This document shows, piece by piece, positions 3,722 through 20,100 of a DNA stretch of 64,000 nt. The position numbers and the translations under genes are program-made. The notes under the pieces are model-generated. The model saw only the letters and a list, made by a program, of their open reading frames with translations, was not told the origin of the DNA and made no database searches. Origin of the DNA: Paludisphaera borealis (GTDB lineage Bacteria; Planctomycetota; Planctomycetia; Isosphaerales; Isosphaeraceae). The DNA lies in the NCBI RefSeq assembly GCF_001956985.1, contig NZ_CP019082.1:1984001-2048000 (forward strand). Direction: 5' to 3'. Within the stretch, counting starts at the first letter, position 1; every line of letters starts with the position of its first letter.

Positions 3722-5176
3722 ATGCCGACGATCCTCGCATGCACTTGCGGCAGTTCGGTGTCGGTCCAATCGCCTTCCAGAGCTGGGAAAGTGCGATACT
3801 CGACCTGCGGGAAGATTCTGATTTTTCCGAATCCGCACGCATCCGATCTCAATCGCCGTAGGTCTGCGTCTCCCACGGTTCCTCCCCCGTTGCCGGTTCC
3901 TGGTCGAATGCCTCCTCCCGTGGCAGGCACACACTTCGCTCGACGCTTCTCTCGAATTCCCTTGCTTGAGCTTCTGGTCAGGGTTGCGGGGGGGAGCAAG
4001 GGATCGTCGACGGCGAGCCGGGCGACGATCATCGGGCTTGGGTCGCTGGAGGTTGCATTTCCTCCGCCGCGAGGCGGGAGAATCGCCCAACTGGATCCCA
4101 ACTCGGGGCCGCCCGAGCCGGACCGGGCGACGGCACGCGCCGCCGAGGCGCCTGCATTGAGCACCCGCGAGATCGTTGCTCGATCCGAGGCTTCCGTGGC
4201 CTTGATTCGAGGTCGGGACGGCATGGGGACCGGCTTCCTCGCTCGACGAAGAATTCTGATCACGAATGCACACGTCATTCGGGGCGAATTGATAGGATCG
4301 CTCGAAATCCACTTCCCGGGAGCCGACGATGGGCTCAAGGGGCTGCTCGCCGCCCGCTTGCTCGACCTCGACGAGGACTCCCCACGCGACCTCGCCATCC
4401 TTGAGGTCGCGACCGACCTGCCGCCTCTGCCGCTGGCGGAAGCCTATGCCTTTCGCAAAGGTGAAGACATAACGGTCATCGGCAATCCAGGGCTGGGTGC
4501 AACGGTCACGTTCGAGAACGCGCTGACCCATGGCGTCCTGAGCACGCAGACGAAACTGGGTGACCAGCGCTTCTACCAGCTCGGGGCCGCGATCAATCCA
4601 GGAAAACTCGGGAGGGCCGGCGATCGATTCGCACGACTCGGTGATCGGGATCGTCACGGCGACCGCCCGAAAGGAACAAGCGATCAGGTTCTGCGTTCCG
4701 ATCGACGTCGCCATCAACATGCTGACGTAAATGGATCGGATCGACCAGGACGCGCGGACCGGGATCGAGAGAAAGCACAACGTCGAGCCTTGCTCGTCGC
4801 CTCCACGCCGTGGGCTCCGGCTATATCGCGGTGCTGGATATTTATGCATCGGGCATCGAGGCCACGGCCGCCCGGGGAGATTCCGCGCAGTCGGCGCTGA
4901 ACGAGGCCGTGGAGATGATCGCCCGCGCTTCCGCCCGTCCCGACTTTTCCGTGCCGCGCGAAGTCGAGGACGAACTCGAAAAACCTGGATCTCGCGCGGC
5001 CGCGTCGCCGCTTGCTGGAGGAACTCCGGGCCGTCGCCCTTGAACTCAAGGAACTCGTGCAGTCGCCTCAAGGGACGGCCGTCCCCCTCCGAAGGTCGAT
5101 CGCGGACCTCAAGAAACGTTTTGTCCTGTGCGCCCGCCTGCTCGAAGATGACCTGGCCGTCGAATTCTCCGAGTAA
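3722..5176 (+). pseudogene. Degraded zinc-ribbon / trypsin-like serine protease gene with several frameshifts
   Basis: The first frame starts at ATG 3722 with a zinc-ribbon-like N-terminus (CTCGSSVSV, then STCGK), in which the usual CPTCG cysteine appears as Tyr-Ser. It reaches a trypsin-like domain with the catalytic His in LITNAHVI and Asp in RDLAILEV. The expected GNSGGPAID catalytic Ser motif is present only if one A is removed from the AAAA run at 4603-4606; as written the frame reads GKLGRAGD. The shifted frame ends at TAA 4728-4730, but homologous-looking coding continues (MDRIDQDARTGIE), shifts by +1 again near 4777-4785, runs through SGYIAVLDIYASGIEA, and shifts a third time in the A-run near 4979-4984 before ending at TAA 5174-5176. 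Three +1 lesions, a nonsense codon and a lost Cys suggest a pseudogene. Homopolymer miscalls could explain two of the shifts but not the stop. Confidence 0.75.
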
Positions 5177-5231: not shown

Positions 5232-6803
5232 ATGGCGGCCGATTGGTTTTATCAGCATGAGAACTCGGTCGTCGGTCCGTTGTCGGCCAAAGAGCTGAAG
5301 TGGCTCGCGACTCAGGGCTCGCTCAGAGTCGGCACGCTCATTCGTCGGGGCGCATCGGGAGATTGGTTCGCCGCCGAAAGACTCGCCGCGGTGCTCGAAG
5401 TCAACCCGGTATACGAGGTCGTCGAGCCCGAGCCGACTCACGCGAACGAGTGGCACTTCACGAGGGATGGACGCAAGCTTGGACCGGTTTCGTTCTTGGT
5501 CCTTGCGGGTCTGTCGAAAACAGGCAGGCTCAAAGTAACTGACCCGGTTTGGACGGCCGAGCTGGCCGAATGGACACCGGCTGGCTGCGTGAAGGGCCTG
5601 TTTGAAACGCCCACACCCGCAAGTGATCCTCCCGTGGCGGTTGGGGACGCCCCGATCCCTGAGGATCTCCCGGCGAGCCGAGTCCCATCGCGGCTGCTGC
5701 TTTTGACTGGGGTCGCCGCGATTGTACTGGTTGCTGTAACGGCGGAGCTTGCATTGAGGGGGCGATCAACGCAACGGGAGACGAAGCTGCGCAAGCGCCC
5801 CGTCGTTGAGCACAGAATCGTGACAAAGGCGGACGTCCGCGTCGATCCGCCCCCTATCCTCGCGATCAAGGAGGCTCCTTCAATCGCCGCTCGAATCGTC
5901 GGACCGGCAGCGCCGATGCGAGTACCCGCGATCCGCGACGCGCCCGGCCGGATCGCTCAGCCGGCTCCCGCGACGGCCCGGCGAGCGGCCGTCGCGGTCC
6001 TCCATGATCCCAACGTCACGGCCAAACCGCTTCCGCTCGGCGATCGTCCACGAATCGACCTCGCCGAGCGCGCTCACAGGCAGGCCGACGCCAGCCAGCA
6101 TGCTACGGCTGCGTCGATCGACGCCGTTCTCGACCGTCCCGAGGAGTTTCTCGGCAGTCGCTTCATTCTGGAAGGTGTGTTCAAGGTCGGGACGCGAATC
6201 CTCAATCCCAAGGACAAGAACGGCTTCAAACTGGGTTCGACGATCACGATCGCCCGCGACGACGACCGGACCATCTCCACCCTGGAAGGAAAGGTTTTCG
6301 GCCACGATCTCCACATCATCCTTGAGGAGCAAGTGGCGAGGAACCTCCAGCAGCTCTTCGGGCGACTCAAGATGGCGGCGACTACGAAGCCGACGTACAA
6401 GACGATCCTCGGCGTTCGGATCGAAAACAGCCCCAAGGAGGTCGATGGCGAGCCCGCGCTGATCGTCATCGAGTCGCTCGAAATCCTGGGAAGTTGCGAC
6501 TACTACCTCGTGGCGTCCCGAAGTTATGCCAATGCGTTCAAGGTCGCGCTCGTCGACGTCACGGGCGGGCGGATCGACCATGGAGACGGTGAGAAATGGG
6601 TGTCGCGGTTGGGGGGCGAAGAGAAGTTCGTCGGGCCCCTTCGTCGGAAGCTGCGCGATCTCCGGCGACGAGCCATCAACGATGCTCACGGCGCGGTCGT
6701 TGATGCGGTATTGCGAAGCGAGCTCGACCGCTGGTCGCGCATCTCCGCCGCAATCAATACGATCAACACGATTCAAGCCCGCAGGCTCACGGAAAACCAC
6801 TGA
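5232..6803 (+). CDS. Membrane protein with two GYF_2 (DUF4339) domains
   Basis: A 523-residue protein. Two GYF_2-type modules lie at about residues 4-55 (DWFYQHENSVVGPLSAKEL) and 73-125 (EWHFTRDGRKLGPVSFLVL). A Pro/Ala-rich linker, one hydrophobic segment at about 155-175 and a long C-terminal region of unrecognised fold follow. GYF domains generally bind proline-rich peptides, so this is probably a membrane-anchored adaptor; the C-terminal region (about residues 290-520) is globular with alternating beta strands. The start at 5232 is chosen because an AAGGGA ribosome site precedes it and the GYF domain begins three residues in; the open frame continues upstream only through the decayed protease locus. 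It converges with another GYF gene at 6851-7591. Confidence 0.8.
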   Translation: MAADWFYQHENSVVGPLSAKELKWLATQGSLRVGTLIRRGASGDWFAAERLAAVLEVNPVYEVVEPEPTHANEWHFTRDGRKLGPVSFLVLAGLSKTGRLKVTDPVWTAELAEWTPAGCVKGLFETPTPASDPPVAVGDAPIPEDLPASRVPSRLLLLTGVAAIVLVAVTAELALRGRSTQRETKLRKRPVVEHRIVTKADVRVDPPPILAIKEAPSIAARIVGPAAPMRVPAIRDAPGRIAQPAPATARRAAVAVLHDPNVTAKPLPLGDRPRIDLAERAHRQADASQHATAASIDAVLDRPEEFLGSRFILEGVFKVGTRILNPKDKNGFKLGSTITIARDDDRTISTLEGKVFGHDLHIILEEQVARNLQQLFGRLKMAATTKPTYKTILGVRIENSPKEVDGEPALIVIESLEILGSCDYYLVASRSYANAFKVALVDVTGGRIDHGDGEKWVSRLGGEEKFVGPLRRKLRDLRRRAINDAHGAVVDAVLRSELDRWSRISAAINTINTIQARRLTENH

Positions 6804-6850: not shown

Positions 6851-7591
6851 TCAGAATCTCGGGCGAGGAGGCCCAACTAGAATTCCCAGGAAGACGAGCA
6901 AGAGCCAGCTCAGGCCGACGAGTCCCAGAACGAGCCCGGCGATCGCCATGCCCTTACCTTCCAGTGTTCCTCGCGACCGTGAAATTTGACTGAGCGCCAC
7001 GCTTCCGAAGATCGTCGAGAGAAGGCTTCCCAGTCCGCACAGCCAGAGGATGCCCAGAACAAGGCTGGCGATCGCCAGTCCACTCGTTCTCGGCGTCGTG
7101 AATGGAGTTGGATAGTCGCCCGCCGCCTGGGAGAACGGCGCGGGAGAACCCGAATTCGAGCCACCCGGAAAGACCAGCCCGCCGACCTGGTTGGCGGACG
7201 CCCATTCCGGCATTCCGTTTTTCCAGACGAGCGTCCGCGGGGTGATCTCGCCCTGATTGGCCATCCGCTGAAGTTCGTGGAACGGCACCGGCCCTTCCTG
7301 ACGTTCGCCACGCGCGAAGTACCAACCGGGAGCGTCGGCGGCCGACGCGAGCCCCGGCTCCGTCTCAACCAGCTCGATCGGCGCGTTGTGATGAGCCGTC
7401 GCGGCAGGTTGACCGTGAGACGCGGAGAAACGATCGGTGATCGCCGCGGCGCCTCCCCAGTTCTGACGGTCCGTGGAAACCTCGTGAAACCGAGTGAATT
7501 GGCCCCGTTTGCTCATCACTTCGAACTGCGTCAGCGTGAACGGCCCGAAGACGCGTCCCCGGGATCGGATGAACCAGCTTTGTTCCGCCAT
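6851..7591 (-). CDS. GYF_2 / DUF4190 membrane protein
   Basis: A 246-residue protein with two GYF_2-like modules (WFIRSRGRVFGPFTLTQFE near the N-terminus, then GWYFARGERQEGPVPFHEL near residues 89-140) and a DUF4190-type tail of two transmembrane helices (about 170-195 and 217-240) joined by a SQISRSRGTLEGKGMAIAG loop. The family is common in planctomycetes and its function is not established. The start ATG at 7591 has an AAAGAGG ribosome site. It lies 47 bases downstream of the 979-residue membrane protein on the same strand, so it may be the last gene of the GTPase/GAP1 cluster. This is an inference from spacing only. Confidence 0.8.
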   Translation of the reverse strand: MAEQSWFIRSRGRVFGPFTLTQFEVMSKRGQFTRFHEVSTDRQNWGGAAAITDRFSASHGQPAATAHHNAPIELVETEPGLASAADAPGWYFARGERQEGPVPFHELQRMANQGEITPRTLVWKNGMPEWASANQVGGLVFPGGSNSGSPAPFSQAAGDYPTPFTTPRTSGLAIASLVLGILWLCGLGSLLSTIFGSVALSQISRSRGTLEGKGMAIAGLVLGLVGLSWLLLVFLGILVGPPRPRF

Positions 7592-7638
7592 GGCCTCTTT
7601 GAGATTCCTTGTACTTCCGCGCCGGGGTTACGGACGGT

Positions 7639-10578
7639 TCATACCTTTGGAACGGCGTTCACGGTCACGAAGACGGGCCGCCCCTCGGCGCGGACGTCTA
7701 GCGATTCGGGTGCCACACTGACCTTGCCGCTGTTGATCTTTCCCAGCTTTTTCCAGGCCGTGCGAGGACTCCCCTCCGGAACGGCCACCCAGAGTTCTCC
7801 CTCGTTGGGCAGGACCGATCCCGATCGAAGCCCCCACGTCGAATCCTCCTGGGCGAGCCAGCCAACCGACCGATACGTGAGCGTGATGATTTGCTCGATG
7901 CGATGTTCCTGAACGCGCGCCTCGCGCAACATCTCGAGACTATCCGGCATCGATTCGACGACCCGTTCCGCGGTGAGGCGCAAGCGTCCCGCGTCCACGC
8001 TCTCGGGATCCATCCAAGGGACGTTCAGATCCACGTCCGATTGCTCCATTACGGCTTTCAACGGCGCCAGGGCCGCCTGGAGGGGCACGCTTCCTTGCAT
8101 GGCGTATTCGGTCACCTTCTTCAAGAGCGTGAGCTTGAGAATGGGATCCATCTCGGCGTCCTTGCGGATCTCGGTCAGCAAGTCGAACATCACTTTGTCC
8201 CAGTCGGGGATCATCGCCGCCCGGCTGAAGATCGCTTTGTACCTGACGCCGATCTTGGTCTGCGGCGACACGGATGAATAGATGATGTTCGCCTTGACGA
8301 TGGGCTTCGCCCGCTCGCGTCCGTCGAATCCGCTGATGTAGCGGAGGAGGTTGGAATCCTCGCTGGGCTGCTTGGTCAAGAAATAGCTTTTAGGCCGGGA
8401 CGGCGGATTCTTGACCTTAACGACCCAGACGGAGTCGATCAGGATGTCGGAGAAGAGCTGCTTCAGCCGGTTCCTGGGATTGTCGACGCGGAGGTCGCGA
8501 CGCGCCATCGCTTCGAGGTGAGCCTGGTATTCCGTGAGTCGGAGGGCCGACGGATCGTTCGGATTCTCCGCCAAGAACGTCTTGCAGGCCGCGGCGCGGG
8601 CGCTCAACTGCTCGCTGGTCGCGGTTGATTCCGGGACTTGCCAGCTCGCGAGCAGGCGATTCTCCTTCGTGATCGTCTGCCAGATCGCCCGTTCCGGCTC
8701 GACCTTGGCCATCGCGCGCGATCGCGGCGAATCGGGATAGTTCTTGATATATTTCTGGATCAGCTCGGTGTAAGCGTCGAGGTCTCGGGGCTCGTCGTCG
8801 GCCGAATAGGCGACGGCGCTCGTCATCTGTTCTTCGAGCCTGCGTCGTTGTTTACGGCCCTCTTGCTCAGCGCGCATCGCGTCCAGCTTCAGGCTGAGAA
8901 CGCGGAATGCTTTCTGTTGCTCGTCGCCGACGTGGTCGATCTCCGTCCCCAAGCCCCGCAGTTCCGCTTGCGTCTGCACCAGCTCTTTGAGAGACGCGGA
9001 GGCTTCCTGACCGTCGGATTTGGCTTTCTCCAGCTTGAGCCGGATCACCTCGATGTTCGCACTCAGAGCAGACAGTCGCGGCGCCAGTTCACGCTCGCGT
9101 CGATCGCGGTCTTCGCGATGAGCCGCCCCTCGACGTTGCAGCAGTTGATCGAGCAGGGTCTTCTCGGTCGATAGGCGGGCCAAGCCGCGAGCGGTTTCCA
9201 GGGCGGTGGGGTCGGCCTCGGTCACGGGGGCTTGCTCCACCTGCCGGATCGCCTGGTCGAACTGGATCTGACGTTGAGCTTCCTTCTCCTGCGCTCCTTG
9301 CACGAGGGCTCGGGCGTTGGCGAGGCCGGGATATTCGAACAGTGAGGGGTCGGCCTTGGTGAGTCGCTCAAGGAATTCGACCGCCTGCCCGTGCTCGCCG
9401 AGTTCGAGCATATCGCTCAGGGCCGTCGCCGCTCGCGCGGAATCGCGGGCCCTCGACTGGCTTCGAATCCCCGCTCCGACGGCCGACACCACGACCACAG
9501 CCGCGACTGCGGCGGCGGCGGCGGCCCACTGCCTGCGACGGGTTTGCCGGGCGCGTTCGAGAGTCAAGCGGGAGACGAATCGATCCTGGATCGACGCGGG
9601 CATGCCGTCGCTGTGCTTCAGGATTTCGTTGGCCGTCCGGTCGAGCACGGCGGGAGCGACGGACTTGGGATCGTCGAGCAGATCAACCAGATCTCGGATA
9701 CTGTCTTCGCGGTCTCGGTTGAACTCGTCGCGCCGGTCCTGGTCTTCCAGCCACCGCAACGCCGGTTCGACCCGCTCATGGACGGCGTCTTTCGGCGAGA
9801 GCTTGACCGCCGCGATGGTCGCTCGCCAGCGGTCGCGAGCGAGCCGACCGCGAATCGGGTCGTGGGCCGAGAACGCGTCGTTCAGACTCACCTCGATGTC
9901 GGCGAGAATCGCGCGGTTCTGCTGCCCCCGGAAATGAGCGTCGCTCTTGCGAATCGCCTGAACCAGTACTACGGGGGGCGGCTCGCTCCACGTCTGGTCT
10001 TCAAGCTCGGCGAGCAGGCGGCCGACAGAGCCGGCGTCGTGACGGCGCGCGGCTTCCGCCGCCTCGACCTGGATTTCCCGAAATCGGGCCTTCTCGAAAA
10101 TCCTGAGGTCATCCTGCCAGATCGGATTGTTCGCGTCCTGAGCGGTCAGCTTGCGAATCACGCCGATCCGCGCTCGCAACGGCGCGCGGGCGAGGGCGAG
10201 CCGACGATGAGTCCGGAGCAGGTCCTGGATCGGGTCTTCCTGAGCGTAGGCTTCGTTGAGGAACGAGGTGATCTCGATCGGGAACCTGGGCGCATCGGGG
10301 AGCCCGTACATCTGGACGAGCTCGTCCCAGTCGGCTCGCTCGGGAAAGTCGAGATCGGCGATCGCGTCGAGCACCCGCGGCGCGATGTCGGCGAGCTGGA
10401 TGGCCTCGGACCGCAGCCCCTGCTGGAGCAGCCGATGACACCGCGCCAGCCGACGGCTCACGTCGCCGCAAGCCTGCGCGTAAGCCGCCGCCAAGGCGTC
10501 CAGCGCCGGCGTCCGCGTCTGGTCCACGGCCTGCAAGAGGGCTCGAATCTGGTCGACGATCTCGTGATGGTCGGGCAT
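7639..10578 (-). CDS. Large single-pass membrane coiled-coil protein of the GTPase/GAP1 cluster
   Basis: A 979-residue protein with no enzymatic motif that I recognise. The first 345 residues are helical and rich in Arg, Glu and Ala. One Ala/Val transmembrane segment lies at about 351-371, encoded by the GC-rich run near 9500-9530. A long, highly charged coiled-coil region follows (about 420-620, with repeats such as QKEKE-like and LEKAKSDGQ). The C-terminal third looks globular with beta strands (VWVVKVKNP, VRYKAIFS, LWVAVPEGS). It lies 36 bases downstream of the GAP1-like gene and is probably co-transcribed with it. It may correspond to the helical partner found in bacterial GTPase-centred systems, but the family assignment is unproven. 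Confidence 0.75.
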   Translation of the reverse strand: MPDHHEIVDQIRALLQAVDQTRTPALDALAAAYAQACGDVSRRLARCHRLLQQGLRSEAIQLADIAPRVLDAIADLDFPERADWDELVQMYGLPDAPRFPIEITSFLNEAYAQEDPIQDLLRTHRRLALARAPLRARIGVIRKLTAQDANNPIWQDDLRIFEKARFREIQVEAAEAARRHDAGSVGRLLAELEDQTWSEPPPVVLVQAIRKSDAHFRGQQNRAILADIEVSLNDAFSAHDPIRGRLARDRWRATIAAVKLSPKDAVHERVEPALRWLEDQDRRDEFNRDREDSIRDLVDLLDDPKSVAPAVLDRTANEILKHSDGMPASIQDRFVSRLTLERARQTRRRQWAAAAAAVAAVVVVSAVGAGIRSQSRARDSARAATALSDMLELGEHGQAVEFLERLTKADPSLFEYPGLANARALVQGAQEKEAQRQIQFDQAIRQVEQAPVTEADPTALETARGLARLSTEKTLLDQLLQRRGAAHREDRDRRERELAPRLSALSANIEVIRLKLEKAKSDGQEASASLKELVQTQAELRGLGTEIDHVGDEQQKAFRVLSLKLDAMRAEQEGRKQRRRLEEQMTSAVAYSADDEPRDLDAYTELIQKYIKNYPDSPRSRAMAKVEPERAIWQTITKENRLLASWQVPESTATSEQLSARAAACKTFLAENPNDPSALRLTEYQAHLEAMARRDLRVDNPRNRLKQLFSDILIDSVWVVKVKNPPSRPKSYFLTKQPSEDSNLLRYISGFDGRERAKPIVKANIIYSSVSPQTKIGVRYKAIFSRAAMIPDWDKVMFDLLTEIRKDAEMDPILKLTLLKKVTEYAMQGSVPLQAALAPLKAVMEQSDVDLNVPWMDPESVDAGRLRLTAERVVESMPDSLEMLREARVQEHRIEQIITLTYRSVGWLAQEDSTWGLRSGSVLPNEGELWVAVPEGSPRTAWKKLGKINSGKVSVAPESLDVRAEGRPVFVTVNAVPKV

Positions 10579-10614
10579 GGTCGGAACTCTCGTCTCCGTC
10601 TACGTCGAACCTCG

Positions 10615-12981
10615 CTACTTCGGTTGATCCGCATACGCGCCGATCCGCGCGATATCGATGAAAGACCCGTCCTTCATGCGAATCGCCATGATCAAACTCA
10701 ACTCGGCTTTGACTGCATGATCAACCAAGTTATACACATGGATTACTGGTTCTAGTTCTTTCTTCATCTTATCTAGTTCCTCATTCTCTGCTTCAAGATC
10801 GTCGATTTCTGTCTTGTGGGCTTCGTGGTTTCTCATCAAGTCCTTAAGCTTTGCGTTCCGTGTCAGACTTGCGGCCTTGAGACTTTCCAATTTTTTGATA
10901 TCTTTTGTCGTCTTGGCGTCGAAATTCAAGGTTGCATTGACGAATCGTCCATCGGGAATGATTTTCATCCAAAGACGGCCCTCCATAATCTCAAGGTTCT
11001 GACCACCGCCGTTAGGCTCGGGCTTCGGCACCCCCGGAGATAGCTTCTGGGATTTCTCATCGACTACGTCGATACGACACATGCGGATGCAGAGGTCCCA
11101 TTTCGAGTTCTCCAGGGCCCAAGACTCCGCCTTCGGGTTTTCCAGGTCCGACGACTCCGCCCAAGGTCTTCTCAGAGTGCGCGGCTTGAGGCCCTCAGCT
11201 TTCTTGCCTGGCTCGATCAGCGAAATCGCAGCCTTCGAGGGTAGCTTCAAAGCTCGTAGCGCGATGTGGCGACGCCCCTGGCTGGTCGTCTCGACGCTGA
11301 GCAGACTGTCGAGAAAAGCCTCGGCCATTTCTGGTCGCTTCCTGACTTCTTCGACGTTCCAGGAGAATGTCAACCTGTCGCCGGCTGTCTCGAATTGAGC
11401 CAGCTTGACAGTCGCGCTCAACCCCGCGCTGGGTACTTCGATCGCCCACGATCGCCGACTCGGGTCGCTTCCCTGAACGTCGATGCTTGTCGCTCTCAGG
11501 TTATCGGGCTCCAGAACCAACTCCAGTGCCTTGACATCATGAGGAATTCTATACGTTTGCTCTGTTCTGATTTGAGGACCAAGTCCCGATGCCGGGGGTT
11601 TGGGTAACTCGATGAACGTCGGCAAGGGGTCCAACTGGGCCGCCCGCGCCGGGTCAGGAGATGTCGCCGCTGCGTTTGGAGTCTTGTCAGCGGAGAGGGG
11701 GCCCACGAACGGAGGCGGAGACGGCTTGGGGACTGGTTCGGGCTTTGGAGCGGGGTTCGGCTCGGCGGTTATGGGAACCGCCTCCTTCGCTGCGTCGACC
11801 TTCGCGGCCGGGCCGACTTGAACCTCGGCGGCTATCTTCCTCTTGGTTTCCACAGCCTTGGTCGCTTGCTCAATAACGTCGGTTGACTCCGAGCCTCGCC
11901 ACATGAAGAAGGACAGCATGCCGAGCAAACCGAAAGCCGCGAGTGATCCCGCGATCCACCAGGCCGTCCTGGCGCCGGATCGCGGCGTTGGATGCACAAG
12001 GGTCGATCGTTTACTTCCTGACCTGAACGTTGGCGGCCCTAACCTCACGTCATAGGCCGGCACGCGCTCTTCATCAGCGATCGGCTTCGCGAGGCGAGCG
12101 CCTTCAGGCGGAGCCTCGGCCTGCCAGCGACGATCTTGCTCAGACGGATCGGGGGTTTCAATGAGTTTATCGGGGACGAGGCGCAGTAGACCCGTCCTCG
12201 CCTGATCAACCAGCGGCCCCCCTTGGGCTTGGCCGAGCGCGGCGCGAAGATCGATCACCAGGGCGCCGGGCGTCCGCGCCGCTTGTTTGGCGAGCGGGGT
12301 TCCGGCGACGACGCCGCGCCATGCGCAGGTCAGCCCCTGGGGAAGTTGGGTGAAGTAAGTGTTGAACTCGACGTCCCAGCGCTTCTCCGGGGGGATGAGC
12401 GCCAGAGCTTCGACGAACAGGGAGAGTAGATCCTGGCCCGGATCAAAAACCAGGAAGGCCGGGCGACCGGGGGCGGCGAGGAACGACTCGGCGAGGGCAC
12501 CGGCCCAGCCGGCGTCGCCGGTGACGGTTTCCCACGCATGCGCGACGCCGCCGGGATGATCGCCCTGCGGAACCGGACGGCCCGACGACAGGAGCCGGGG
12601 TTCTCCCTGCCAGGAATGGTCCATGAATCCCGGCTGGCTCAGCAGCCAGGCGGGCCCTGCCGTGGGCCGCTCCGAGGGATCGACGACCACGTGATGCGCA
12701 TACTTGTTGGACCGCTCGGTGTAGTCGAGCCCCGCGAACGACACCCGAGACAGCACGCTAGAGAGCCGACCGCCGAGGTTGAGCCGATGATGCGCGAAAA
12801 CGACCGGATTGCGGGCGGCGTCGGGGTCGTGCGGAGGGAAGATCTGCTGATAGCCGCTCAGCCCTTCGAGCCGCTCGCGAAGCGGGCCGGACAGGCTCGG
12901 TGTGACAGCGACGGTGCAAAAGCCTCGCGATCCAGCCTGAAGCCCGCGCGGGACCGACGTGTAGTGCAATTCCTGGCTCAT
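10615..12981 (-). CDS. GAP1-N2-like GTPase-associated protein with transmembrane segment
   Basis: A 788-residue protein. The N-terminal 240 residues (ELHYTSVPRGL, then YTERSNKYAHHVVVD and FNTYFTQLPQG) match my recollection of the GTPase-associated protein 1 N-terminal domain type 2 (GAP1-N2), a family found beside bacterial TRAFAC-type GTPases. A single hydrophobic segment lies at about residues 335-357 (WWIAGSLAAFGLLGMLSFFMW). A Pro/Lys linker follows (about 370-450), then a C-terminal half with beta-rich and Lys/Glu-rich coiled-coil stretches. The coding sequence of the C-terminal third (about 10680-11600) is clearly AT-richer than the rest. It lies 98 bases downstream of the GTPase gene. 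The likely role is as partner or regulator of that GTPase at the membrane, by inference. Confidence 0.75.
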   Translation of the reverse strand: MSQELHYTSVPRGLQAGSRGFCTVAVTPSLSGPLRERLEGLSGYQQIFPPHDPDAARNPVVFAHHRLNLGGRLSSVLSRVSFAGLDYTERSNKYAHHVVVDPSERPTAGPAWLLSQPGFMDHSWQGEPRLLSSGRPVPQGDHPGGVAHAWETVTGDAGWAGALAESFLAAPGRPAFLVFDPGQDLLSLFVEALALIPPEKRWDVEFNTYFTQLPQGLTCAWRGVVAGTPLAKQAARTPGALVIDLRAALGQAQGGPLVDQARTGLLRLVPDKLIETPDPSEQDRRWQAEAPPEGARLAKPIADEERVPAYDVRLGPPTFRSGSKRSTLVHPTPRSGARTAWWIAGSLAAFGLLGMLSFFMWRGSESTDVIEQATKAVETKRKIAAEVQVGPAAKVDAAKEAVPITAEPNPAPKPEPVPKPSPPPFVGPLSADKTPNAAATSPDPARAAQLDPLPTFIELPKPPASGLGPQIRTEQTYRIPHDVKALELVLEPDNLRATSIDVQGSDPSRRSWAIEVPSAGLSATVKLAQFETAGDRLTFSWNVEEVRKRPEMAEAFLDSLLSVETTSQGRRHIALRALKLPSKAAISLIEPGKKAEGLKPRTLRRPWAESSDLENPKAESWALENSKWDLCIRMCRIDVVDEKSQKLSPGVPKPEPNGGGQNLEIMEGRLWMKIIPDGRFVNATLNFDAKTTKDIKKLESLKAASLTRNAKLKDLMRNHEAHKTEIDDLEAENEELDKMKKELEPVIHVYNLVDHAVKAELSLIMAIRMKDGSFIDIARIGAYADQPK

Positions 12982-13079
12982 GAATTCGTCGACTCCGTCG
13001 TCGCCGCCCTCGGATCTTCAACTCGTCTCGATTTGCGGAGTTCCGCCCCGGAACCGACCTCGAAACCAATCCGGCTCGA

Positions 13080-14390
13080 TCACCCGGAGGCCGCGGATCG
13101 CTTCCTGACGCGGGGCGTCAGCGCGGGGAGCACCTTGCTCAGGCAATACAACAGCGGAACCGCCACCCAGTAGGGATTCAGGTTCGCGGGGCGAACTCCA
13201 GGCAGACCCGTGGCGGGATCGAGCTCGATCTGATTCCCGAGCGAGCTGACGGCGACGTAGGTCACATCCTGGGCGAAGCTGTCCGCGGCGGCGACCGTCT
13301 CGGGACAATACTCCTGGAGGATCTGCCTAAACCGTCTCGACCGCTGCTCGATCTGGTCGGCGTCGACTCCAGCGACTCCTCCGCTGTTCCGCCATGGCTC
13401 GCCGTCGTCGACGGCCCCGTACAGATGCGACCATTCGTCGAACTTCGAGAGCACGACGACGACGGGACGATCATAGCGAGCCTGCTGAGAGGCCCCGCTG
13501 AACTTGCGGATCCGCACGGCGGCCTCGGTCAGAAGCGTTTCCTGCCGGCTGAGCCGGTTGTCGCGACTCCCTTGCGGCCCGAGCGCCTTGCTTTTGCAGG
13601 CCGCTCGAAACCGTTTGTCCTGGGTGGGATCGAAAAGGAACAGGATCGCCCGCGACTGGGTGAGATGGCGAGTCACGGGGCTCGAAGTCGTGTCCTGCCC
13701 CGGCTGAAAGTGTTCGCCCGCATTATCATAAAGACATAACACGCGAGACAGCTCGGCCGAGCGGTCGAAACGGGCGTGCCCCTCGCGCGGCTGCATGGTG
13801 AAGAGGAACGGCCTCGGGTAGCTGACGATCTGCTGGCCGTAGGCGACCGAGTCGTAAAGCTCGCCTTGAAGCTCGGTCTTCCGGATCAAGTCGCCGAGCG
13901 GAACGATCATCGACTCGCGCGAGTTCAAAAACAGCGACTCTTCGCAGTCGTTCAAGGCGCGGTTGGCGGCGGGGTCGGCGTCCGTGAACGAAATAGAGAA
14001 TTCCATCGGGAGCAGCTTGCGCAGTTGCCACGTCATCGCCGTCAAAAAGTACGACTTCCCGCTGGCCGGCGCCCCCAGGATCGAGAGGAAAAGGGGCTCC
14101 ATCTCCATCATCGAACGAGGGACCGAGAGATGGCATTTGGGACAGGCCAGCGACCGCGCGGTCATGCCCCGCGCATCGATCGCATCCCCTTCCAGGGTGA
14201 ATCGACTGGGCAGAAAGCGCTGTTGCTGCTCAGGACCGAGGAGCGGGTCGCCCATCAGATCGACGTGTTCCGAGATCCAGAGCACCTGCTCGGGAAGGAA
14301 CCGATCCCAGCAGTGAGGACAGGTCACCTGAGAGAGCAGCTTGATCCCAGGAGCTTCCGAAACACGCTTTCGCCCCCCAACGCCGCTCAT
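13080..14390 (-). CDS. Zinc-knuckle TRAFAC-like GTPase (DO-GTPase2-like)
   Basis: A 436-residue protein from the preferred ATG at 14390; an upstream ATG at 14525 would add 45 unconserved-looking residues. A CPHC pair (Cys24, Cys27) and a CPKC pair (Cys83, Cys86) flank an N-terminal region and probably bind zinc. The P-loop is GAPASGKS at 106-113, the G3-like motif is DNAG at 222-225, and an NKxD-like SKFD at 315-318 gives guanine preference. This arrangement resembles the double-GTPase type 2 family seen with GAP1-N2 proteins. It is the first gene of a minus-strand run with the GAP1-like protein, the coiled-coil membrane protein and the GYF/DUF4190 protein. GTP hydrolysis is inferred, not shown. 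Confidence 0.8.
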   Translation of the reverse strand: MSGVGGRKRVSEAPGIKLLSQVTCPHCWDRFLPEQVLWISEHVDLMGDPLLGPEQQQRFLPSRFTLEGDAIDARGMTARSLACPKCHLSVPRSMMEMEPLFLSILGAPASGKSYFLTAMTWQLRKLLPMEFSISFTDADPAANRALNDCEESLFLNSRESMIVPLGDLIRKTELQGELYDSVAYGQQIVSYPRPFLFTMQPREGHARFDRSAELSRVLCLYDNAGEHFQPGQDTTSSPVTRHLTQSRAILFLFDPTQDKRFRAACKSKALGPQGSRDNRLSRQETLLTEAAVRIRKFSGASQQARYDRPVVVVLSKFDEWSHLYGAVDDGEPWRNSGGVAGVDADQIEQRSRRFRQILQEYCPETVAAADSFAQDVTYVAVSSLGNQIELDPATGLPGVRPANLNPYWVAVPLLYCLSKVLPALTPRVRKRSAASG

Positions 14391-14757
14391 ATTCGTATTC
14401 TCATCCGTACGGATCGGCGAATCTTCCCTCGAAGGAGACGCGTCCGATCCCGTGCGACTCCTTGATACCATGACTCGCGCCTGGCGGTCTTGCAAACATT
14501 CAAGAATCGTGTGCAAAGAATACATCCGGCCATTCCATACCGCAAGAGTACTCTCTCAAGCCGATCCGTTTTTAATCTGGCGTAGAATGAGCAGAGGCTC
14601 AGGTGCCGTCGCACCACGAGATCAGCAGGAATCGACCAGAGTCGCCTTGCGCCGCTTCGGCCCCCGGCAAGAAGGCGATCAAGATCTTTGATAGCCCGAA
14701 CCGCGACGCGTAGGATGATCAGCGATTGCGACCGTTCCGCGCCGTCGAGGGAATCCG
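14391..14757. other. Divergent intergenic region between GTPase and phosphatase genes
   Basis: The two genes are transcribed away from each other, so promoters for both should lie here. An AT-richer stretch at 14500-14590 is the likeliest location. No clear operator or hairpin was recognised. Confidence 0.4.
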
Positions 14758-15615
14758 ATGGATTCGTCGCCTGAGAAGCCTTGCCTCAATCCAATGCGTT
14801 GCATGGAGATTCGCGGAGGCAACCGCGCCGTGGAGGAGTCGTTCCAGACTCCAGGGCTCGATGCGTGGCTCTACAGCCTGCCGTTCGAGAACAGCGTGCG
14901 CGGCGGCGATCTCCATTACGTATCGGTCTGCGGCGGCGGTGTGATCACGCGTCTGGTGGTCGCCGACGTTTCGGGTCACGGCGAGCAGGTCGCCGAGTTC
15001 TCCGACGCTCTGCGGTCGATGATGTGGAAGAACATCAACACCAAGAGCCAGACCCGGCTCGTCGAGGCGCTCAACCGCCAGTTCGGCGAGACGGCCCAGT
15101 TGCTCCGGTTCGCGACGGCCGTGGTCGCTACCTATCTGGCCACCAAGCGCACCCTGACCATCTGTAACGCGGGCCATCCGCGTCCCCTATGGCATCAAGC
15201 CGCGACAGGCCCCTGGGGATTGCTCGACAAGGAGTTCGCCGGGGCCGGCAACCTACCCCTCGGGCTCGACGACGACTCGCCCTACAACCAGTTCACCGTC
15301 ACCCTAGGTGCCGGCGACGTCCTGCTGTTTTACACCGATGCGCTGACCGAGGCGATGGACGCGTCGGGTCGATTGCTCGGCGAGGACGGCCTGCTCGAAA
15401 TCGCTCGCGGGCTGGACCTGAGCGATCCCCACCGCATCGCCCCCGCCCTGCTCGCCGCCATCGGCCGGCATCGGTCCGGAAGGCCGGCCGACGACGACGT
15501 GACGCTGCTCACCGTGTTCCACAACGCGCGAGGGCCCCGGCGATTGTCCCTCGCCGCGAAACTGGACGTCTACGCGAAGCTCCTCGGACTCCGAAGCCCT
15601 CGAGCGCCTCGGTGA
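14758..15615 (+). CDS. PPM-type SpoIIE/RsbU-like serine phosphatase
   Basis: A 285-residue phosphatase. The metal-binding motifs of the PPM/SpoIIE fold are present: VVADVSGHGEQVAEF (about 70-85), NAGHPRPL (about 137), YTDALTEAMD (about 194) and DDDVTLL near the C-terminus. Relatives dephosphorylate anti-sigma-factor antagonists in partner-switching pathways. No receiver, PAS or HAMP sensor is attached, so its input must come from another protein. GAGGGA precedes the ATG at good spacing. No RsbV/RsbW-like gene is visible in the window, so its partners are unknown. Confidence 0.88.
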   Translation: MDSSPEKPCLNPMRCMEIRGGNRAVEESFQTPGLDAWLYSLPFENSVRGGDLHYVSVCGGGVITRLVVADVSGHGEQVAEFSDALRSMMWKNINTKSQTRLVEALNRQFGETAQLLRFATAVVATYLATKRTLTICNAGHPRPLWHQAATGPWGLLDKEFAGAGNLPLGLDDDSPYNQFTVTLGAGDVLLFYTDALTEAMDASGRLLGEDGLLEIARGLDLSDPHRIAPALLAAIGRHRSGRPADDDVTLLTVFHNARGPRRLSLAAKLDVYAKLLGLRSPRAPR

Positions 15616-18808: not shown

Positions 18809-19125
18809 TCCGAGACTCCTTGCGACGGTTTCCAGCGCCGTCCCCGAGATCTTCAGGCGAGTCGCCCGGGGCCTTGTTTCATTTTAGCCCCGGCGCTCGA
18901 CCAGGGCATCGTCCAGCCCCCGTTGAAGGTGTACTTCCACCACCCTTATTTGACAACTTCAGGAGGCGACCTACGCTACGGGTAAGGAGCCGAAGCCGAT
19001 TTCAAACGGCATGGAGGCGAGACTTCCCAAGGTGACGAGGAGACGCTCGGGATGCTTTTAGGTGCAAGGCGACCACGGCTTTGCACCTGGACGCTCGAGA
19101 CTCTCCGGCGGAATCGAGGCGGGAT
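18809..19125. other. Divergent intergenic region, protease to FHA-GGDEF gene
   Basis: No gene seen. It should hold promoters for both divergent genes. The frame continues open to a TTG at 19081 upstream of the chosen ATG, but a ribosome site favours the ATG at 19126. Confidence 0.4.
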
Positions 19126-20100
19126 ATGGACGTGAAGGGCAATACGCAGATCTGCCTCTCGCCGGTTCGGGAATCGGAGGAACGGACCCAGATCGCCGCC
19201 CCCCTTCCGATGTACCTGATCATGGTACGAGGCGGGATGACCGGGACGATGCTCCGGCTCGGCGGCGAGCCGACCAGCCTCGGGCGGTCGGGCGAGAACA
19301 CGTACCAGTTTCACGACGCAACAGTCTCGCGACGGCACGCCGTGCTCTCGTACGATTCGGACGGCCGCGCCTGGCTGACCGACGTGGGGAGCAGCAACGG
19401 AACGTTCGTCGACGGCAAGAAACTGGCTCCGAACAAGCCGACGCGGGTCGAAGAGGGGAGCCGCATCCAGCTCGGCGCGGCGCTTGTCCTCAAATACGTT
19501 AGCCTCGACCCGTGCGACGAGCGGTTCCAGCGCGAGATGTTCGAACGAGCCGTGCGAGACAACCTGACCGGCCTGTACAACCGCGCCTATTTCCTGGAGC
19601 AGATCGGGCCGCTCTGCGATCGCAACGTCCAGCGCGACCTGGGCTTGGCGATCCTGATGGTCGACATCGATCGGTTCAAGCAGATCAACGACGAGCACGG
19701 CCACGACGCGGGCGACACAGTGCTCCGCGAAGTCGCCCGGGTGCTTCGCGAATCGACCCGTCTGGAAGACCTCGTCGCCCGTTACGGCGGTGAGGAGTTC
19801 GTCTTCGCCCTGCCGGTCGCCTCGCTCGAACAAGCCGTCGAGCGCGCCGAGCGAGTTCGCATCCACCTGGCGCAGCGGGCGATGCATGCGAACGGCAAGC
19901 AGTTGCACGTCACCGTAAGCATCGGCCTGTCGTGCAGCCTGAGCGGATGGCCTCGGAGCATCTCGGGGCTGATCTCGGCGGCCGACGAGGCGCTTTACGA
20001 AGCGAAGCTGAACGGCCGCAACCGCGTCGTTCCCGCCTTCAAGCCCCCTCTCGCAAGCCTGCGACGAACCGAATCGGCCGACGCCATGGCCGTCTGCTAA
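19126..20100 (+). CDS. FHA-domain diguanylate cyclase
   Basis: A 324-residue cytoplasmic fusion. The FHA domain (about 40-115) shows the phosphothreonine-binding signature GRSGENTYQF, VSRRHAVL and GSSNGTFVDG. The GGDEF domain (about 145-300) has NLTGLYNRAYF, DIDRFKQINDEHGHDAGD and an active-site RYGGEEF, so it should make cyclic-di-GMP. An RLED sequence sits five residues before GGEEF and fits the RxxD inhibitory I-site. The FHA input suggests control by a Ser/Thr kinase. The ATG at 19126 follows GAGGCGGG; a TTG 45 bases upstream is a less likely start. Confidence 0.92.
   Translation: MDVKGNTQICLSPVRESEERTQIAAPLPMYLIMVRGGMTGTMLRLGGEPTSLGRSGENTYQFHDATVSRRHAVLSYDSDGRAWLTDVGSSNGTFVDGKKLAPNKPTRVEEGSRIQLGAALVLKYVSLDPCDERFQREMFERAVRDNLTGLYNRAYFLEQIGPLCDRNVQRDLGLAILMVDIDRFKQINDEHGHDAGDTVLREVARVLRESTRLEDLVARYGGEEFVFALPVASLEQAVERAERVRIHLAQRAMHANGKQLHVTVSIGLSCSLSGWPRSISGLISAADEALYEAKLNGRNRVVPAFKPPLASLRRTESADAMAVC

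Follow-up and report, generated by a model that had tools for sequence, protein, structure and literature searches.

The 64,000-nucleotide stretch of the Paludisphaera borealis genome analysed here (contig NZ_CP019082.1, positions 1,984,001 to 2,048,000; hereafter the window) contains a quartet of genes that constitutes a GYF-type DO-GTPase2/GAP1-N2 system. We suggest tentatively, with somewhat less than even confidence, that the quartet acts as a GTPase switch anchored in the membrane, serving to position or activate an envelope machine based in the inner membrane. The quartet consists of four intact, head-to-tail open reading frames (ORFs) on the minus strand, 14390-13080, 12981-10615, 10578-7639 and 7591-6851, with intergenic gaps of 98, 36 and 47 bases, which encode in turn a GTPase, a regulator termed GAP1, a large helical protein termed CC and a GYF protein. 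The same genes and gaps had been described in an earlier, sequence-only reading, whose calls of a GTPase family, GAP1-N2 and GYF/DUF4190 are borne out by Pfam: 13080-14390 matches a GTPase family, 10615-12981 matches GAP1-N2, and the gene order is kept in relatives. Its statement that all partners except the GTPase have membrane segments agrees with hydropathy, by which GAP1 and CC have one transmembrane (TM) segment each, the GYF protein two and the GTPase none. The observation is confirmed; the interpretation given to it is partly supported, in that the operon-like arrangement and the membrane-anchored GTPase complex hold up.

The GTPase gene (13080-14390) encodes a DO-GTPase2 protein of 436 residues, the soluble switch of the system, which matches PF19993 at 30.4 bits (cut-off 27). 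The reading frame stays open up to an in-frame ATG at 14525, and an alternative upstream start is possible. In an alignment of the window protein with 10 relatives, K112, S113, D222, G225, E226, K316 and D318 are invariant (11/11), and the Walker-B glutamate is present in the equally invariant D222-N-A-G-E226. The two N-terminal Cys pairs (CxxC), C24/C27 and C83/C86, are also kept in 11/11 sequences; no Pfam zinc ribbon was found over cut-off, and either one split ribbon or two would be compatible with the pairs. The GTPase and GAP1-N2 have one match each in the 7.65-Mb genome that holds the window.

The GAP1 protein (10615-12981, minus strand; 788 residues) consists of a GAP1-N2 plus GAP1-M head (residues 1-264), a Pro-rich linker, one TM segment (residues 342-360; 11902-11958) and a diverged C-terminal part. 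Pfam places GAP1-N2 at residues 1-127 (12601-12981; 110.8 bits) and GAP1-M at residues 149-246 (12244-12537; 57.5 bits), and both domains were found in 35/35 GAP1 members scanned. GAP1-C was not among the six Pfam families listed for these 35 members, the region after GAP1-M being linker and TM segment; we take it that Pfam holds a GAP1-C model. The head shares 58-69% identity with the window protein in 11 of 12 relatives of the family and 33% in the twelfth (L037), and the part beyond the TM segment 13-26% in all 12. The mean Pro content is 15.7% in the linker before the TM segment and 7.4% in the head (26 sequences with a TM segment), and about 7.1% beyond the TM segment in the 21 sequences having such a part, or 5.8% if five tails of 2-6 residues are included.

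The CC protein (7639-10578, minus strand; 979 residues) has a helical, more conserved N-terminal part (residues 1-345), one TM segment (353-371) and a C-terminal part of helical and mixed structure. It matches no Pfam family over cut-off, and no Pfam family matches more than one of 37 CC members. Identity to the window protein in 11 relatives is 28-59% over residues 1-345 and 17-37% over residues 376-979. The structural model (predicted local distance difference test score, pLDDT, 88; predicted template modelling score, pTM, 0.53) is mostly helical on either side of the TM segment, with a C-terminal alpha/beta plus beta region. A search for a specific fold gave only weak helical-repeat matches, with Z up to 10.8, below the level at which the tool advises caution for helical proteins, and CC is described here, from its model, as probably mostly helical and repeat-like with a mixed C-terminal part, and no further. 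The earlier description as a coiled-coil membrane protein is right as to the membrane segment, which is single by hydropathy, while "coiled-coil" fits only part of CC, whose largely helical model also includes an alpha/beta plus beta region at the C terminus. As each of GAP1 and CC has a single TM helix, the far side of the membrane is probably periplasmic in both.

The GYF protein (6851-7591, minus strand; 246 residues, two TM segments) contains two GYF_2 domains (82.2 bits) and a DUF4190 region (53.6 bits). GYF domains bind Pro-rich segments. From this property and from the Pro content of GAP1, the GYF pair would be expected to bind the GAP1 linker.

To place the quartet among its relatives, 80 of the 295 loci given by a scan with a GTPase alignment were kept (L042-L121). 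They belong mostly to Planctomycetota and Lentisphaerota, with one from Kiritimatiellota and two from Verrucomicrobia. Locus counts are restricted to L042-L121 because other handles duplicate contigs (L023=L045, L027=L046, L030=L042, L031=L049, L033=L053, L029=L062, L025=L056), and the neighbouring genes were called by a picker based on GC content at third codon positions, which may miss genes. GAP1 follows the GTPase in 71 of the 78 loci that extend 300 nt or more beyond the GTPase gene, within 250 nt in 66, and CC follows GAP1 in 54 of the 55 loci with a complete GAP1 and room for it, within 250 nt in 53. GAP1 is not downstream in seven loci (L043, L044, L047, L048, L054, L059 and L112, of which L059 and L112 end within 635 nt) and lies farther from the GTPase in five (L057, L058 and L118, which have an extra gene between, L088 and L090); before CC, L072 has 1.8 kb, and in L074 no CC was found. 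The GTPase-GAP1-CC core is well supported. Among 45 genomes of the family the GTPase is present in 14, and CC occurs in 14/14 of these versus 2/31 genomes without the GTPase (Fisher test, 7e-10, relatedness ignored). This co-occurrence holds where the parts are separate: in G018 the GTPase and GAP1-CC-GYF are on different contigs, and G020 combines a linked set with a split one. In the phylum as a whole the GTPase is present in just 20 of 294 genomes, which makes the module accessory.

Several variants were seen among these genes. The GTPases of L043, L044, L047 and L048, without a downstream GAP1, form a clade; L043 and L048 share a conserved neighbourhood, and GAP1-CC lies elsewhere in some family genomes. 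In L135 (5015-11847) the GTPase is flanked by two GAP1 genes. A second class of GAP1-N2 matches consists of short open frames of about 220-370 residues (e.g. in G012, G039, G041 and G042), several of them in genomes without a CC match. Five loci (L080, L097, L103, L104 and L112) encode a GTPase fused to GYF, and FHA is also present in the four scanned; the fusions of Lentisphaerota and Kiritimatiellota take the form FHA-GYF-GTPase (L080, L097, L103 and L104) or FHA-GTPase (L085 and L106).

Envelope-machine genes adjoin the module in 32 of the 80 loci: ExbB-like genes in 10, PilM in 14, GYF-T2SSE in six and a Tad-like set in two. Rhodopirellula solitaria CA85 is one carrier of linked ExbB-like genes, and Oligosphaera ethanolica one of linked PilM. 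In the ExbB-like loci, a MotA/TolQ/ExbB protein in which the motif is seen is followed by single-TM proteins, two in eight loci and one in L067 and L118, which end after the first; an Asp at the start of the TM segment is invariant in these partners (12/12 and 8/8 aligned). The 14 PilM loci form part of a Lentisphaerota clade (one is from Verrucomicrobia), and the PilM-family protein is mostly followed by a single-TM protein. In six loci GYF is fused to a T2SSE ATPase of the pilus/secretion type, and these form one clade with L136 (support 100/100), in which a TM helix forms the very end of CC (7/7) and of GAP1 (5/5 sequences tested), the C-terminal part being absent. In the two Tad-like loci, L121 and L111 of Phycisphaerales, a T2SSE gene lies upstream of GTPase-GAP1-CC. 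The region directly upstream of the GTPase in L121 (3782-9800) encodes FHA-T2SSE, two T2SSF proteins, a further protein with FHA, and a kinase that matches GYF weakly, at 20.5 bits against a cut-off of 25.8; L111 is assigned as Tad-like by clusters and the T2SSE profile only. Pfam finds MotA_ExbB in 13/13 neighbour proteins scanned (eight from the 80 loci, five from elsewhere), PilM_2 in 13/14, and GYF_2 together with T2SSE in 7/7 neighbour ATPases (six from the 80 loci and L136). Weak PilO and T2SSM matches were among those listed in the Pfam scan of downstream families, which lists 25 of 34 families and gives matches by family rather than by member. Tad-like, PilO/GspM-type and coiled-coil for c2/c4 are labels drawn from Pfam names, background knowledge or inspection by eye.

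As a control with the same profiles, nothing beyond the two Tad-like loci was found in the 493 kb upstream of the GTPases, and the 494 kb downstream held all the others plus a second T2SSE match in L121. This control favours downstream families, and other upstream ExbB, PilM or T2SSE families could escape it, because the profiles were built from downstream genes. Among the 42 loci in which CC is complete and is followed by 1.5 kb or more, 13 have PilM (one of them with GYF on the GTPase), 10 ExbB-like genes, five GYF-T2SSE and one (L121) another arrangement; the others have GYF only, as discussed below. In the tree, the group without envelope-machine genes includes contigs that end early.

The GAP1 head was modelled confidently over residues 1-260 (blocks with pLDDT of at least 89). 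In the model, strands and helices succeed one another in what we take to be longin order, and an alpha/beta unit comes after them; GAP1-N2 would thus be longin-like and GAP1-M weakly DENN-like by fold comparison. Residues 1-311 were compared with known structures by Foldseek and the resulting list was realigned. The top Foldseek match is DENND1A (E 0.012, probability 0.91). After realignment the Z scores, each with the number of residues, are 7.8/238 for DENND1B, 7.4/235 for DENND1A, 7.0/244 for an entry containing DENND10 and 7.6/120 for an archaeal longin, with chain identities taken from entry titles. Of the first 13 entries in the realigned list, 12 hold DENN/longin-type proteins and one is TagF; FLCN, Lst4, GATOR1/KICSTOR and SEA entries follow further down. 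The resemblance of the GAP1 head to TagF, a regulator of type VI secretion, extends over 211 residues at Z 7.0, and longin, DENN and GTPase are not mentioned in the one TagF paper searched.

These data can be assembled into a candidate mechanism. The soluble GTPase would cycle between GDP and GTP, and the cytoplasmic head of GAP1, with its longin-like part and its alpha/beta, DENN-like part in the model, may act as an exchange factor or activator of the GTPase. The Pro-rich linker and the single TM helix would tether this head to the membrane. The GYF pair would recognise Pro-rich segments, for which the GAP1 linker is the simplest candidate, and bring the parts together at the membrane. CC may be the effector or scaffold, with a conserved cytoplasmic helical part, one TM segment and a more diverged C-terminal part taken as periplasmic. 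The outputs of such a module would be those suggested by the relatives: an ExbB-type proton channel with its single-TM partners, a PilM platform, a GYF-linked pilus/secretion ATPase or a Tad-like set. Because relatives carry the same set beside different motor or pilus parts, control of envelope machinery seems likelier than a role in defence only.

Several points weigh against this reading. The main gap is in the genome of the window itself: in a search of the 45 family genomes, in which c2 alone and PilM- and T2SSE-type genes elsewhere were not searched for, it lacks dedicated ExbB-type and c4 proteins. Its sole ExbB match (E 2.5e-18) is of a generic kind that 43 of the 45 genomes share, and the complete dedicated ExbB form was found only in G027 and G034. 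An unlinked copy of the dedicated motor in the genome of the window was considered and is ruled out by the same ExbB and c4 search. Among the 42 loci above, the module is accompanied by a downstream GYF gene alone in 10 and by GYF on the GTPase alone in three. The two single-TM partners of ExbB in L066 gave no match to the ExbD family at E <= 0.1. The binding of the GAP1 linker by the GYF pair is a predicted step, and the T2SSE clade (6.0-14.4% Pro, five sequences) and L057 (7.0%) have linkers with little enrichment in Pro, though GYF is present there. The occurrence of the module is patchy (14/45 in the family, 20/294 in the phylum), which also fits a defence system. With respect to the fold of GAP1, the best Foldseek E value is only 0.012, every DENN/longin Z is below 8, the level of the tool's warning on common arrangements, and PAS-domain and AAA-ATPase entries appear lower in the list at Z 4.5-5.7. 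A sequence-profile search of the Protein Data Bank with full-length GAP1 gave matches in the linker and later parts, none in the head and no DENN/longin relative. Because each Z is under 8, we put weight on the coherence of the list and on no single score.

The sequence-only reading had offered a defence or signalling role. Defence survives as one rival, although the ExbB-like, PilM, T2SSE and Tad-like neighbourhoods of relatives point more to control of an envelope machine. Under this rival, which we regard as unlikely, the quartet would be a biological conflict system (anti-phage or cell-fate) in which CC or the variable part of GAP1 would detect an invader, the threshold would be set by the GTPase, and the membrane or trypsin parts would serve as effectors. 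A conflict role is the published proposal for the DO-GTPase/GAP1-N2 family (Kaur et al., 2020, PMC7159879, cited here from its accessible text). The module is patchy also within the genus of the window (1/6 genomes with the GTPase), the C-terminal part of GAP1 is diverged, and a trypsin-like ORF adjoins the module both in the window and in L062. However, the trypsin-like ORF of the window (3722-4900, plus strand; assigned by Pfam and homology) is frame-broken: its homology to the L062 trypsin ORF is confined to one frame across 4160-4612 and shifts to a different frame for 4605-4787, and by eye the original gene may end at a stop at 5174-5176, so that it may be either a pseudogene or an assembly error. 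Moreover, none of five proteins, the quartet among them, matched a PADLOC model at E <= 0.01 (best E of the quartet 0.037), and among ten neighbours such models matched only a WD40 protein and the trypsin-like ORF, apparently through generic domains. No nuclease, pore or toxin family was found among the neighbours scanned (172-24533 of the window), and ExbB, MotA, TolQ, pilus, PilB, PilM and T2SS do not appear in the accessible text of PMC7159879.

A second rival, which we regard as slightly less likely still, is a sensor of envelope stress or of the cell wall, in which CC and GAP1 would read the periplasm and the GTPase would relay the signal to cytoplasmic signalling (a SpoIIE phosphatase, an FHA-GGDEF protein) without driving a motor. 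The lack of a dedicated ExbB-type motor in the genome of the window agrees with this, as does the presence, by Pfam scan, of a SpoIIE-type phosphatase gene divergent from the GTPase gene (14758-15615, plus strand) and an FHA-GGDEF gene nearby (19081-20100, plus strand), and some pspFABC operons contain a DO-GTPase predicted to act in membrane stress, according to the accessible text of PMC11237479. However, the SpoIIE and FHA-GGDEF genes are unmatched in L024, the one module-bearing relative compared for flanks, and the absence of C-terminal parts in the T2SSE clade is left unexplained by a sensor. It is very improbable that the quartet is a relic of an ancestral motor-linked system whose machine was lost: although the c1 and c4 genes are absent from the genome of the window, the trypsin frame is broken, and G033 has a CC gene and an ExbB-like stretch interrupted by a stop (contig C100, 7998-12206), a possible relic without any GTPase match in the genome, the four window genes are intact, with near full-length conservation and with GTPase motifs and Cys pairs kept. 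Motor genes are likewise missing from the roughly 2.9-3.7 kb that follow the GYF gene in four further family loci possessing the complete quartet, L042, L045, L053 and L062; a fifth, L046, stops 176 nt past that gene.

Beyond the quartet, the window carries a second gene for a GYF_2-pair protein (5232-6803, plus strand; 523 residues, one TM segment; assigned by Pfam, hydropathy and homology), which converges with the quartet and, like the trypsin-like ORF, lies downstream of it. The C-terminal part of this protein has matches beside the operons of relatives, with 41% identity over 111 residues in L024 and 24% over 181 residues in L049/L031. Insertion or loss of the module in this lineage is not demonstrable, because stretches of up to 20 kb around homologues of the flanking genes in five genus mates share no gene order with the window.

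Among known systems, the quartet is closest to the planctomycete GAP1-N2 systems in which a GYF-pair protein is fused to trypsin or to a TM-rich region and which were described as predicted conflict systems (Kaur et al., eLife 2020, PMC7159879). Shared with this GYF subset are the DO-GTPase2 with N-terminal Cys pairs and a Walker-B glutamate, the downstream GAP1 (GAP1-N2, GAP1-M and TM), the GYF-pair protein with a TM-rich region and the nearby trypsin. The FNIII component of general GAP1-N2 systems was not found, no fn3 match being present in the quartet or the second GYF protein; hence the quartet is filed only under the GYF subset. The claim that such a complex has not been studied in planctomycetes stands for experiments, as judged by a search of the open-access literature, and fails in so far as Kaur et al. 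had described GYF-pair GAP1-N2 systems there. The accessible text of that paper, figures and supplement aside, does not describe CC, which is a constant third component of the module, the ExbB-like, PilM, T2SSE and Tad-like neighbours, or the FHA-(GYF-)GTPase fusions, FHA appearing only in other contexts; nor does it mention DENN, longin or Lentisphaer.

In layout the module resembles the MglA system, with a small GTPase and a roadblock-type GTPase-activating protein (GAP), a large effector and motor parts. In Myxococcus xanthus, MglA-GTP acts via SgmX, a 1,060-residue tetratricopeptide repeat protein that helps in positioning the PilB ATPase (PMC7519303); GltJ, too, is an effector of MglA (PMC12288465); and AglR/AglQ/AglS comprise one MotA/TolQ/ExbB protein and two ExbD/TolR proteins (PMC3169522; all three cited from accessible text). 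The likeness is one of analogy, and the family tests give no membership: the over-cut-off Pfam matches are DO-GTPase2 and GAP1-N2/M only, with no MglA-family GTPase or roadblock GAP. In contrast to MglA/MglB, the GTPase is of another family, CC has no detected relation to SgmX, the single-TM partners lack an ExbD match and the genome of the window has no dedicated motor. The GYF protein of the quartet matches the GltJ model NF033761 over 79 residues at 39.7 of 450 bits, far under the cut-off, and a literature search joining GltJ, GYF and MglA found nothing.

The other likeness is that of GAP1 residues 1-311 to the folds of TagF and of DENN/longin complexes that act as guanine nucleotide exchange factors or GAPs (DENND1, DENND10, FLCN-FNIP and GATOR1). 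Unlike these complexes, GAP1 is bacterial and is fused to a TM segment and a C-terminal part; its scores are weak, a sequence match is lacking and a d-DENN is not seen. No uDENN, DENN or dDENN Pfam family was found in 35 GAP1 proteins at E <= 0.01. Longin domains have been argued to derive from prokaryotic MglA-GAP domains, and DENN and d-DENN were stated to be known only within the DENN module (Zhang et al., 2012, PMC3521125, accessible text). It is possible, if on the whole doubtful, that a module combining a DO-GTPase with a bitopic helical scaffold, a GYF adaptor and a bacterial regulator of longin/DENN type has been plugged into different envelope machines in separate lineages of Planctomycetota, Lentisphaerota and Kiritimatiellota, as a second solution to the problem solved by MglA and with DENN-like GTPase regulators in bacteria. 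To our knowledge, little is known about the switching of envelope machines in these three phyla. If envelope-machine control is indeed the role, a family now counted among predicted conflict systems would turn out to control such machines there, and a bacterial longin/DENN-type GTPase regulator would bear on the origin of eukaryotic membrane-traffic regulators. The quartet itself is a known kind of system, and what is new is its genomic context.

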